Under the pieces are notes generated by a model. That model saw only the letters and a program-made list of their open reading frames with translations. It was not told where the DNA came from and made no database searches. DNA of 40,740 bases from a virus: the IMG/VR virus record IMGVR_UViG_3300043778_000035, positions 1-40,740 of that record; one strand, 5' to 3'. Each line of letters begins with the position of its first letter. Position 1 is the stretch's first letter. Of the stretch, positions 2,883 through 40,740 are shown piece by piece. A program made the translations under genes and the position numbers.

Positions 2883-3511
2883 ACTTTCTCCTTCTGGACG
2901 ATCTCGTCCGGGGTGAAGACGAACCCGGCTTTGCGCGGGAACGCCTGGAACACGTAAGTCGGAAATGACCGGTGATGAATGCCGTGTGTGGGCGAGCGAT
3001 GAAACTTCGCAGACAGCGGCAGCATGTTCTCCATCGCGTCGACGAAGGTTTCGGGCTTCGTCGGATCGAACGCATGCCAGTCAAAGCCACGCAGCTCGAC
3101 GAGCTTGCAGATGAGCCAGAGGAACGATTCCTCGACCGGGTACAGTTCCTTCGTCGGCTGATCGGTGGTCGGGTCCAGCACGGGAAGCGCTTTGACGTCA
3201 CCCAGCGCGACCCCGCGCACGACTACCCAATCAATTCCGTCGGAATCCGCCCATTCGCAGAACAGGTGGTGATACTCGGGCGCCGGTTGGCCGCTGATCG
3301 AGCAGCGCAGGCCGGCCGCATGCCCCACTTTCTTCGTGCGGCGGAACGTCGCCGATTCAGTACGCGGCGAATGGTCCGGGTAGTATTCGACCTCGACGTC
3401 GGTGACGCGCACTGCATGCTCACCGGCGATCTTCGGCAGATTCGCGAGCCCTTCGGCCGTACACCGTTCGCAACGCTGTTCGAGCGCGACATCATGGCTG
3501 CATCGAGTCAT
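2879..3511 (-). CDS. Phage protein with CxxC and HNH-like cysteine/histidine cluster, function unknown
   Basis: A 210-residue protein. Near its N-terminus are paired cysteines (CERCTAEG), and in the middle LRCSISGQPAPEYHHLFCEWA, a Cys/His arrangement that resembles a treble-clef or HNH-type zinc site (C, HH, C). The second half carries PVEESFLWLICKLVELRGFD and HGIHHRSFPTYVFQAF. I recall similar genes beside lysis genes in other Burkholderia phages but no assigned function. It follows a terminator hairpin (3530-3554), so it needs read-through or its own promoter. Confidence 0.65.
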   Translation of the reverse strand: MTRCSHDVALEQRCERCTAEGLANLPKIAGEHAVRVTDVEVEYYPDHSPRTESATFRRTKKVGHAAGLRCSISGQPAPEYHHLFCEWADSDGIDWVVVRGVALGDVKALPVLDPTTDQPTKELYPVEESFLWLICKLVELRGFDWHAFDPTKPETFVDAMENMLPLSAKFHRSPTHGIHHRSFPTYVFQAFPRKAGFVFTPDEIVQKEKV

Positions 3512-31962: not shown

Positions 31963-32798
31963 TGCGCCTCGATGATTGTCAATTGCCGCGGATCAACCTC
32001 GGGCGCTGTATCGTCCTCATCCAACCCAAGCACCCACCGGAGCGCTGCCGCGCGCTCGCCCGTGCAGATCGCCAACTCACGCTTGATTTCAGCCTTCGTC
32101 TTGGACTTGAACCCATCGCCGGCAAGCGCCGCCCTTTGAGCCCTGGACTTCGCGTGACCGGTTTTCCCTTCCGCAGCCGCGCGCAACTCAGCCACCTTCA
32201 AACGCTGCAGGGCTGGTTCGAGCTTGGACAGGCGCAACGCGTGTGTCACGGTGATCTCGTCGCGCTCCAGCGCGTCACGCACGTCTGCGCAGCACTCCAG
32301 CAAGCGGAATTGTCCGTCGATCGACGACGGTTCCATGCCGAACGACAGCGCGATCTCCTCGTTCGTTCTGCCCTGCGAACGCATCACCGCCATTTTCTCC
32401 GCGCGGTTCATCGGCGAATCGGCCCGGCGAATTTCGTTCGTGCTGACCATCACACTCGTCAGCGCTGCGATGCCGTCGCGCCGCGGGATCGCCGGAACGC
32501 GACGCACATCCTTCCCAGCTTCACGCAGGCGCCGATTTGCCTCACGTGCATTGATGACGCGGCGCCGACCGTCAACTACGATCGTCTGGCCCGTCTCCAC
32601 GTCCTTCGTCACCGTGATCGACTGATGAACACCTTCGACCATGATGTTGAGCACCATCGGTTCTTCGAACGGCACGAGTGCACGACGATCGAACAACGCA
32701 TGATTCGGGTCCGTGACGATGACCAAATCATCGGGATCGAAGAACAGCGCGGCACACTTCCCCGTCGCGCGATAGGCTTCTACTGAATCCTTCGCCAT
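31959..32798 (-). CDS. ParB-like nuclease/partition-domain protein
   Basis: A 279-residue protein. The ParB N-domain shows IVVDGRRRVINAREANRRLR and the RxxR segment; DIVIVTDPNHALF-type text precedes it. A helix-turn-helix follows at about residues 150-190 (RTNEEIALSFGMEPSSIDGQ, FRLLECCADVRDALERDEI). No ParA partner is seen, so it is an orphan. ParB-like proteins in phages have been linked to replication, DNA binding or nicking. It is the gene just upstream of the O-like initiator and overlaps it by 4 bases. Confidence 0.85.
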   Translation of the reverse strand: MAKDSVEAYRATGKCAALFFDPDDLVIVTDPNHALFDRRALVPFEEPMVLNIMVEGVHQSITVTKDVETGQTIVVDGRRRVINAREANRRLREAGKDVRRVPAIPRRDGIAALTSVMVSTNEIRRADSPMNRAEKMAVMRSQGRTNEEIALSFGMEPSSIDGQFRLLECCADVRDALERDEITVTHALRLSKLEPALQRLKVAELRAAAEGKTGHAKSRAQRAALAGDGFKSKTKAEIKRELAICTGERAAALRWVLGLDEDDTAPEVDPRQLTIIEAQ

Positions 32799-36693: not shown

Positions 36694-37069
36694 CTAGGCT
36701 TGGGCCGGTTGCGCAAGCGACGAGAAGATGTTCGCGAGGTCGAGATAGTTGAGTTTCCCCTCGGCGACGTCGACCATGATTTCTTCGAGGGCTTGGGTGC
36801 GGGCGATCCCATATCCCTCGATGAAGAGATAAGCGAGCGCGCAAACGAGGGCAGTTCGCTTGTTCGCGTCCGAGAAAGCATGCCCACGGGCGATCGCTTC
36901 CGCATACATGCCAGCGATTTCGAACACGTCGCCAAGGCCTTCGTAATAGATTCTCAATACGACCAAGGGCGCCCTCTAAGGCGCCCCTGTTCGTGTGGCC
37001 GGTCAGGCCTGGCTCGCGAGAAAGGATGTAGTCGTGTACCAATACGACCATATCCGCTTCTAGGTTCAT
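36694..37069 (-). pseudogene. doc: Doc-like toxin (Fic family) with a one-base frameshift
   Basis: The N-terminal half is read from ATG 37069 (ADMVVLVHDYILSREPGLTG, then RGALEGALGRIEN). The rest is in a second frame (YYEGLGDVFEIAGMYAEAIA, then RGHAFSDANKRTALVCALAY). Joining them at about 36949 by deleting one base gives 124 residues, the length of P1 Doc (126). The Fic motif HAFSDANKR is intact and is the Doc form (HxFx[DN]ANKR), which phosphorylates EF-Tu and stops translation. As it stands the toxin is broken. The ATG overlaps the antitoxin stop by 4 bases. Sequencing error is the main alternative. Confidence 0.82.
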
Positions 37070-37248
37070 CGATTGGCGAGAGCCTGGATGACCGAGTGGT
37101 GTTGTTCGTACACGGTCTTAGCGGCGTTGAGGATCGCTTTCCGGCCGGCCGGCGACTGAGTGGTCACCTTCACGGTCGGTTGTTGGACGGACTGGCGCGC
37201 CCGAACCTCCACTCCGTGGATGGTCCCGGTCTTACCCTTGATGCTCAT
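37066..37248 (-). CDS. Doc antitoxin-like protein
   Basis: A 60-residue protein starting MSIKGKTGTIHGVEVRARQS at ATG 37248. The C-terminal helix AKTVYEQHHSVIQALANR fits a Doc-neutralising tail. The N-terminal part does not look like the Phd DNA-binding domain, so the family is uncertain. It overlaps the toxin start by 4 bases. A perfect 12-bp palindrome CTGCACGTGCAG (37321-37332) upstream may be its operator. Confidence 0.65.
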   Translation of the reverse strand: MSIKGKTGTIHGVEVRARQSVQQPTVKVTTQSPAGRKAILNAAKTVYEQHHSVIQALANR

Positions 37249-37320
37249 ATGGACTCTCCAAGAGGCGCAACGGGATTGTTGCATTGCGAAACTGTGTCGG
37301 CGAATTGTACCCGCGAATTT

Positions 37321-37332
37321 CTGCACGTGCAG
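37321..37332. promoter_or_regulatory. 12-bp palindrome upstream of the Doc antitoxin
   Basis: CTGCACGTGCAG is a perfect palindrome. On the minus strand a possible -10 (TACAAT, near 37301-37306) lies downstream of it, so the palindrome covers the -35 region of a candidate antitoxin/toxin promoter. Autoregulation of this kind is typical of toxin-antitoxin operons. Confidence 0.4.
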
Positions 37333-37704
37333 GCGAGGCACCGAAATTTCAGAGCCTGCGAGTCAATTATCGGCATCACAGGCGCGATTTCAAGGGGGTA
37401 ACGGCACCTATGTCGAAATTGCTGTGACAAATTCACGCTGCGAATTTCACGCTGCAGAGCGTATGCCTATCGCCGTCACCGGTGTGCCGCCGCTCAAACC
37501 GGAGCAAGCGACCTCAGACCCTAACACCGGTCAGAGGCCAATCATTCGTTAGACAAATTAAGCAGCCGCATAACCTGTTGCTCAGGTACTTCATTCTTGG
37601 CAAACTACTGTACGCGCATACAGTGTTTGGCCTGGGAGACGGGGGATGCATGTACGAGAAATCAAAGACAGCAGTTTCGTTCGTCCTCATCTATTAGTTT
37701 TCTA
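37333..37704. other. Intergenic region with a short tandem repeat, no supported gene
   Basis: Between the antitoxin promoter region and the rightward promoter I see no convincing gene. A 14-base unit (AATTCACGCTGCG / AATTTCACGCTGCA) is tandemly duplicated around 37429-37456. Near 37690-37702 TATTAGTTTTCT repeats the upstream element of the cro promoter. A 71-codon frame (37482-37697) has no ribosome binding site or family resemblance. Confidence 0.5.
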
Positions 37705-39042: not shown

Positions 39043-39152
39043 AGCGCGCTGATCCCGAACATGTCTCCACTGCCGCGCAAATTTCACCCTCGGATAGCGC
39101 GGCTTCTTCTGCTGGTACCTGTATGGGCCAGCGATTTTTTTGGGAAATCGAC

Positions 39153-39512
39153 ATGCAACAGATCCAGCTTCCCCCGATCGCCGAAGGGCAGACATACCTA
39201 CGTGGCAGCTCCAACAGGAATGGAGACATCGAGCACACCGTGATCATCGCTGTGAACGATGAATGTTTGCCGCGCGATTTGCAGCGCAAGTGGGCAAAGA
39301 GCGTCGGTGGCGTGCTCTACAACCGTATCGATGCCCTCTATGTCTACAACGAGCATCGCGATCTCGTGAAGCCCGAATTGTATTGGACAGACGACGACGT
39401 TGAGTGGAATTCCGCTTACGCCTGGTGTCAGAACTACTACCACGGCCGCCAGTACAACGGCCCCAAGAGCGTCGCGATCCGCGGCGTCGCCGTCAGCAGA
39501 TTCATTCTTTGA
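39153..39512 (+). CDS. DUF1566-like (C-type-lectin fold) protein, diverged member
   Basis: A 119-residue protein starting MQQIQLPPIAEGQTYLRGSS. The C-terminal third (ELYWTDDDVEWNSAYAWCQN, then HGRQ and RGVAVSR) follows the DUF1566/Lcl layout: an YW pair, AW-x-Q, G-x-Q and a final basic strand. The N-terminal half is short compared with the next two proteins. I chose ATG 39153; one at 39123 adds ten residues without homologous pattern. It is the first of three tandem DUF1566-type genes and may be the ancestor or a non-variable partner. Confidence 0.7.
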   Translation: MQQIQLPPIAEGQTYLRGSSNRNGDIEHTVIIAVNDECLPRDLQRKWAKSVGGVLYNRIDALYVYNEHRDLVKPELYWTDDDVEWNSAYAWCQNYYHGRQYNGPKSVAIRGVAVSRFIL

Positions 39513-39577: not shown

Positions 39578-40201
39578 ATGAGCACGCTCACCAATGCATC
39601 AGCAATCAGCAATGACATCCCCACCGCATTCGGTACGCCCTGGGAAGGCGGCCACTACATTGGCCTGATCAGTTACAACGGCGACGTATACGCCCAAGTG
39701 GTCGCACCAAAGGCTGCCGGCCAGCTGCCCGGCCGTCATCAGTGGGGCAAGTACGGCACCGAGATCGCGGGCGCAGCCAGCTTCTTCGATGGTCACTCGA
39801 ACACGAAGGCAATGGCCGAAGCTGGGCTCGTGATCGCCGAACTGGTGCTCGACTTGCGCATCGGTGGCTTCAATGACTGGTTCATCCCCGCTCGCGATCA
39901 ACTCGAACTTGCATATCGGGGTTTCAAACCGACCGACGAAGAGAACTGGGTTTATCGCAGCGGCGACAACCCGAGCAGTCTGCCGCCCGGCTACCCGTAC
40001 ACGATCCATTTGCCCGGCCAGACGTCCGTCGAACTCTTCCGGAAAGATGGCGCCGAAGCGTTTGATGACGATCGCTACTGGACCAGCACGCAGTACTCGG
40101 CCTACTTCGCCTGGGGCCAGCACTTCGATGATGGCTACCAGGGCCTCACGGACAAGGACGGCAACGGTCGGGTTCGCGCCTTCCGCAGCATCAAACTTTA
40201 A
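39578..40201 (+). CDS. DUF1566 protein, candidate DGR variable protein
   Basis: A 207-residue protein with ribosome binding site AAGGAAA. The N-terminal part includes GGHYIGLISYNGDVYAQVVA and GRHQWGKYGTEI; the core has GGFNDWFIPARDQLELAYRG. The C-terminal 35 residues match the hypervariable DUF1566 segment of diversity-generating retroelements: YWTSTQYSA, then AWGQHFDDGYQ, then GRVRAFRSI. In such proteins adenine-templated mutagenesis varies surface positions of a C-type-lectin-like fold while the YW, AW-x-Q, G-x-Q and RVRA-x-R positions stay fixed. Function: likely ligand or surface binding. Confidence 0.82.
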   Translation: MSTLTNASAISNDIPTAFGTPWEGGHYIGLISYNGDVYAQVVAPKAAGQLPGRHQWGKYGTEIAGAASFFDGHSNTKAMAEAGLVIAELVLDLRIGGFNDWFIPARDQLELAYRGFKPTDEENWVYRSGDNPSSLPPGYPYTIHLPGQTSVELFRKDGAEAFDDDRYWTSTQYSAYFAWGQHFDDGYQGLTDKDGNGRVRAFRSIKL

Positions 40202-40254
40202 TCATTCAATCATTTCGACGGCATCGACCCACCGATCACATCCAAGAGAATCAG

Positions 40255-40740
40255 ATGAGCGAAATCACCATTCCGTTTCACGGCGGCAAACTGGTTGTGC
40301 CGCAAGAAGAAGCTGCGCGCGCATGGCTCGATAAAGTGCTTGCGCCGCAGGGGCAATCCATCGCGTCGGCGAATCTGCCGGTGCAATTCGGCGAGTACTG
40401 GCCCGGCCAAGGCGGCATCTATGTGGGTCCGATTCCGGATGAGAAGAACGGCGGTGTGCATCATCTGATCGCATCGATCGATGAAGCCGAAGATCTCTCG
40501 TGGGGTGCATACGGCACATGCGTTGATGGTGCCGACGACAAGCTCGACGGCCGCGCAAACACGCTCGCTCTGCTGGCGGCCAGCACGTCGCATCCGGCGG
40601 CCGAGTGGGCGTCAGCATACACGAAGGACGGCCATCGCGATTTCTTCCTGCCGGCGCAACGCGAATTGGCCCTCGCGGGGGCCACGTGTGCACGCAAGTT
40701 CGCATCTGCCTGGTATTGGTCGAGCACGCAGTACTCGGCC
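40255..40740 (+). CDS. DUF1566 protein, second paralogue, cut by window edge
   Basis: 162 open codons from ATG 40255 (MSEITIPFHGGKLVVPQEEA) to the window edge. Segments QGGIYVGPIPDEKNGGVHHL, SWGAYGTC and RDFFLPAQRELALAGATCAR align with the previous protein. The last visible residues are WYWSSTQYSA, the beginning of the C-terminal region. The last 18 bases (40723-40740) are identical to 40085-40102 in the previous gene, while the bases just upstream differ. The missing part is expected to be about 30-40 residues. Confidence 0.82.
   Translation, partial: MSEITIPFHGGKLVVPQEEAARAWLDKVLAPQGQSIASANLPVQFGEYWPGQGGIYVGPIPDEKNGGVHHLIASIDEAEDLSWGAYGTCVDGADDKLDGRANTLALLAASTSHPAAEWASAYTKDGHRDFFLPAQRELALAGATCARKFASAWYWSSTQYSA

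Follow-up and report, generated by a model that had tools for sequence, protein, structure and literature searches.

The right end of record IMGVR_UViG_3300043778_000035, a linear virus-collection fragment of 40,740 bases that was analysed at its full length (the window), carries two tandem genes on the plus strand. Gene 1, the 'long' gene (39578-40201, +), encodes a DUF1566/Lcl_C-like protein of 207 amino acids with a predicted C-type-lectin fold (from its ORF, Pfam and AlphaFold2). Gene 2, the 'short' gene (40255-40740, +), is a DUF1566-like reading frame of 162 codons, assigned from its open ORF and from phrog_4245, and the record ends inside it. The ORFs confirmed the coordinates of both genes as given in an initial annotation of this DNA, while the DUF1566 identity proposed there held in part. 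Both genes match phrog_4245 (4.9e-30 for gene 1 and 9.6e-23 for gene 2), but gene 1 matches Pfam Lcl_C/PF07603 (DUF1566) with E=2.8e-6 and 28 bits, under the curated cut-off of 34.9, and gene 2 had no hit in Pfam because it is cut before its C-terminus. Owing to the same truncation, the C-terminal pattern 'RVRA-x-R', attributed to both proteins, was found in gene 1 and not in gene 2. Gene 2 was aligned with the short-type partners of complete phage diversity-generating retroelements (DGRs).

We observed that the 18 bases AGCACGCAGTACTCGGCC sit exactly at 40085-40102 and at 40723-40740, and that the codons directly upstream of them differ between the two genes, both as described in the initial annotation. 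This is the longest word that genes 1 and 2 have in common, the next being of 9 bases. Among 60 codon shuffles the longest common word had a mean of 9.4 and a maximum of 13, on which basis we rejected chance as the source of the similarity between them. The shared bases encode the conserved motif STQYSA, and the two genes are paralogues. VR1, the variable region (VR) at the 3' end of gene 1, spans 40088-40188 (+), with its 3' boundary placed by homology to the VRs and template repeats (TRs) of relatives. VR2 is visible for its first ~15-18 bases only; in the register of VR2 in the loci L008, L038, L043 and L044 these are 40726-40740 (+; ACGCAGTACTCGGCC), within the 18-mer, and the rest lies beyond the record.

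A further variable region just upstream of the pair, at 39411-39502 (+), had been missed. It was located by its match to a template in the Burkholderia genome G061 and falls in a third gene, for a short protein of 119 amino acids (39153-39512, +; a longer ORF over it starts at 39123), which was recognised from 71% identity to relatives, AlphaFold2 and PDB folds. The AlphaFold2 models of gene 1 and of the third gene had pLDDT values of 94 and 93, respectively, and C-type-lectin folds are predicted for both. The top Foldseek hit of each model was the C-terminal domain of Legionella pneumophila Lcl (Lcl-C, 8q4e), and the third gene also matched C-type lectins in the PDB. Among solved folds, Lcl-C comes nearest to gene 1 (Z 12.4, 3.6 A over 126 residues), so that gene 1, although below the PF07603 cut-off, is a distant relative of Lcl_C; Lcl itself, however, is part of a cell-surface adhesin and not a phage protein, and shares ~20% sequence identity with gene 1. 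In the model, the variable residues map to the C-terminal strands and loops of the lectin fold. From this fold and from known DGR targets we infer that the proteins may bind variable ligands, for example host-surface structures.

The window is a prophage fragment of a temperate Burkholderia myophage. It encodes a Gp53-like tail fibre, baseplate J, sheath and capsid E proteins of a contractile-tailed prophage, as well as a lambda-type portal, a GpA terminase and a cI-type repressor. The left end of the record is host DNA: bases 1-804, which look like part of an amino-acid ABC transporter substrate-binding gene, are 100% identical to G056, a genome of the same genus as B. singularis (Burkholderia). 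The host-prophage junction lies at about 804, and the uninterrupted site is present in G056. A search of G056 for the target genes, bAvd and the reverse transcriptase (RT) gave no match, and G056 is therefore without this prophage. The lectin genes lie beyond the cI repressor, at least 20 kb from the tail genes; being on the cI side and not with the tail genes, they may have a role other than that of a classical tail fibre. Elsewhere in the window, a Doc-like toxin (phrog_577, 7.1e-22) is encoded at 36694-36966 (-), on the strand opposite to the surrounding genes, and the small ORF adjoining it (37066-37341, -) may be an antitoxin.

RT, bAvd, RT-15 RNA and a template repeat were looked for in the 40,740-base window and none was found, which bears out the initial annotation as to the RT and the template; an Rfam scan of the window detected no known RNA. 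No viral contig contained an exact pattern taken from the VR1 3' end, and plasmids yielded nothing either, so these searches revealed no continuation of the record. The checks for an RT, a template and adenine-specific changes that had been suggested for the sequence to the right were run on the loci of relatives. Single-sequence searches of genomes and viral contigs with gene 1 or gene 2 yielded no confirmed relative; relatives were recovered only with an alignment of phage relatives as the query, which fetched 30 genome and 80 viral loci with the long gene. The long/short pair occurs in more than 100 Burkholderia, Ralstonia, Pseudomonas and phage loci, and the closest relatives of gene 1 are in B. 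singularis (L008, 74%) and in two IMG/VR loci (L038, 75%; L039, 73%).

Using HMMs built from three phage DGRs, we found an RT match downstream of the pair, mostly together with bAvd, in 84 of the 93 loci whose sequence extends downstream for 3.5 kb or more. At least five of these 84 matches are relics (L022, L031, L045, L090 and L101), and in about one-seventh of the relatives the genes are without an intact RT. Downstream of orthologous pairs in the Burkholderiaceae (63-75% protein identity) lie bAvd, a template repeat of ~100 bases and a DGR-type RT. The gene order of the window is that of L038, L039, L043, L044 and Pseudomonas phage LPPA56, where bAvd, TR and RT come after gene 2; in LPPA56 and Cruim01 the pair is followed by bAvd, the RT-15 RNA (RF03018), the template and the RT. 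The DGR-type RT and ~100-base template expected to the right of the pair are thus present in relatives.

In the 100 loci with a template repeat, TR and VRs differed at 3050 of 6552 template adenines and at 85 of 11288 other bases, a count that favours the adenine pattern, since some loci are near-copies and the finder admits only few non-adenine mismatches. Related variable regions are therefore mutated almost only at template adenines, as had been anticipated. Two VRs were present in 65 of these loci, three in 29 and one in 6; one template feeding two VRs, the arrangement first suggested for the window, is the rule among its relatives.

VR1 played no part in finding the templates and hence provides an independent test. 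It was changed at 17 of 31 adenines and 2 of 49 other bases relative to the Ralstonia L009 template (p=2.8e-7), and at 15 of 30 adenines and 2 of 50 other bases relative to that of L143 (p=1.9e-6), these two being its best matches among many templates. Six unselected Burkholderiaceae templates gave p values from 4.9e-6 to 8e-4. Random stretches of the window, taken as a control, had at least 21 non-adenine mismatches. In comparison with species that share ~75% identity over the gene body, VR1 is ~96% conserved at its non-adenine positions. VR1 is thus a 3' variable region that differs at adenines from templates, in this case those of relatives, as the variable-region reading in the initial annotation implied. 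It is almost certain that genes 1 and 2 are DGR targets, and the original DGR interpretation is supported through the cassettes of the relatives together with the adenine pattern of VR1.

The third gene answers to a different template. It is 71% identical to its copy in L008 and to a DGR target in G061 (locus L147, on contig C4), a genome with a complete DGR whose template is unlike that of the pair (class A). The orthologue of the third gene is one of the two targets of that DGR, and the TR differs from its two VRs at 10 and 11 positions, all of them template adenines. Relative to this class-B template, the third VR was changed at 10 of 26 adenines and 3 of 55 other bases (p=4e-4), with 3-5 non-adenine mismatches to the class-B template of G061, whereas the remainder of the gene is only 76% identical to the G061 gene. 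Feeding of the third gene by the class-A template of the pair was rejected, as it has at least 15 non-adenine mismatches to class-A templates. By these template matches, the target cluster of the window combines two template classes. The G061 locus differs from the window in that the DUF1566 pair is not among its targets, and the window is without a class-B cassette. The third gene may consequently have been left behind by an earlier or second DGR, or it may be fed by an unseen second template; its foreign template class suggests that targets can outlive their cassette.

Several relatives have retained their targets and lost the machinery. L008 has all three target genes in an order unlike that of the window: its third gene is downstream of the pair, at the place of bAvd and RT, whereas that of the window is upstream and the place is open. 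No RT gene or bAvd was detected in a search of the L008 genome, the bAvd model being not fully sensitive (the bAvd of G061:C4 escaped the family search). Both targets are still present in phages Medea1 and Aurca01, whose VRs have 0/50 non-adenine mismatches to the Cruim01 template; of the RT, a C-terminal stump alone is left, directly after the intact DUF1566 targets (L005 6985-7056 in Medea1 and L006 7140-7226 in Aurca01; record positions W01 48455-48688 and W02 32100-32333, respectively). These stumps mark recent losses of the DGR machinery by phages that have retained its targets. Aurca01 is 99.6% identical to Cruim01 across the 1342 bases next after the stump, and the two phages, one deleted and the other complete, were recorded from one host strain and soil type. 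Intact targets accompanied by RT or Avd relics were also observed in L022, L031, L045, L052, L066, L072, L090, L101 and L116. A text search of the literature for targets retained after RT loss returned nothing relevant, a weak negative. The two template classes in one cluster and the RT stumps of relatives point to cassette turnover, and we suggest, tentatively and with some doubt, that DGR cassettes are swapped or deleted while the diversified targets are kept, which would turn hypermutation off and leave the repertoire frozen.

We propose that the three genes at 39.1-40.74 kb are targets of bAvd/RT-type DGRs in a temperate Burkholderia myophage. A complete element would have, after gene 2, bAvd, a structured RNA that carries the template repeat, and the RT, as in the close relatives. 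While copying the template RNA, the RT would insert random bases at adenines; the resulting cDNA would then take the place of the corresponding 3' segment in genes 1 and 2, so that mainly AAC codons would be altered, in exposed C-terminal hairpins of the C-type-lectin domain. Such mutagenic retrohoming is what the established mechanism of DGRs would entail. By analogy with the relatives, the RT, Avd and template probably lie just beyond base 40740, and the DGR machinery of this prophage would be active.

A prophage that was diversified by a DGR in the past and is now without RT, Avd and template, its present repertoire being frozen, would present the same targets. L008, which shares the three targets and in which no RT was detected, would be a precedent, as would Medea1 and Aurca01 with both VRs beside an RT stump and the nine further loci with RT or Avd relics, and the foreign template class of the third gene is what a target outliving its cassette would look like. 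However, an RT match follows the pair in 84 of 93 relatives, even if at least five are relics, and the place downstream of the pair is free in the window, unlike in L008, where the third gene occupies it; we therefore regard such a loss here as unlikely. Far less probable still is that the locus has no DGR history and that genes 1 and 2 are lectin paralogues sharing STQYSA by descent or gene conversion. Their paralogy and the coding of a conserved motif by the shared bases would fit, but their longest common word outside the 18-mer is only 9 bases, the changes in VR1 fall at template adenines with its other positions conserved, and all RT-bearing relatives display the same adenine pattern.

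The reading we favour is that of targets with the machinery probably just beyond the record, and several known systems come close to it. The DGR of Bordetella phage BPP-1 is the prototype, and its target Mtd is a tail-fibre protein. As here, adenine-templated diversification in BPP-1 (Mtd/Avd/Brt) acts on a phage protein of C-type-lectin fold (PMC6642488), but the window targets, two or three in number, are small proteins encoded on the cI side and at a distance from the tail genes. Pseudomonas phages LPPA56, Cruim01 and SC_8_H2H8_2017 (bAvd - RT-15 RNA - TR - RT) carry an orthologous long and short pair, with ~50% identity in the long gene, and share with the window the lectin VR motif and the adenine-only TR/VR difference; the window, in contrast, ends before any bAvd, TR or RT and contains an upstream third target of another class. 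Closer are L038, L039, L040, L043, L044 and Ralstonia L009, in which gene 1 is 63-75% identical and the target order is that of the window. VR1 matches their templates except at adenines, and they differ from the window in having complete cassettes.

Published descriptions exist of DGRs that combine several VRs and DUF1566 targets, including how frequent they are in Pseudomonas and Burkholderia (PMC6642488), of phage DGRs at large scale (PMC8144416) and of phage DGRs with two lectin targets (PMC10743442). DGRs with DUF1566 targets were thus already known; the window adds a Burkholderia temperate myophage with hypermutation targets, located on the lysogeny (cI) side rather than among tail genes. 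Recurrent loss of the RT with intact, signature-bearing targets provides natural pairs, such as Cruim01 and Aurca01, with which to study under what conditions phages retain or abandon targeted hypermutation.

Remote third VRs were observed 6.5-7.5 kb upstream of the adjacent pair in three of the relatives (L038:3646, L040:2155 and L044:1962). They match the same template except at adenines, with one other difference in L044, whereas the third VR of the window is of the other class. Contigs ending at or near a VR or the 3' end of the long gene were seen in L042, L035, L037, L057, L105, L019 and L106; the right end was at most 200 bases from the end of the long gene in 6 of 65 contigs, and L042 ends inside VR2. 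Diversified or repeated sequence may have broken the assembly at these ends, although the pattern is suggestive only. Finally, two more tandem bAvd/RT-like gene sets, 36-41% identical to the RT studied here, are present at G061:C95:6872-10088.
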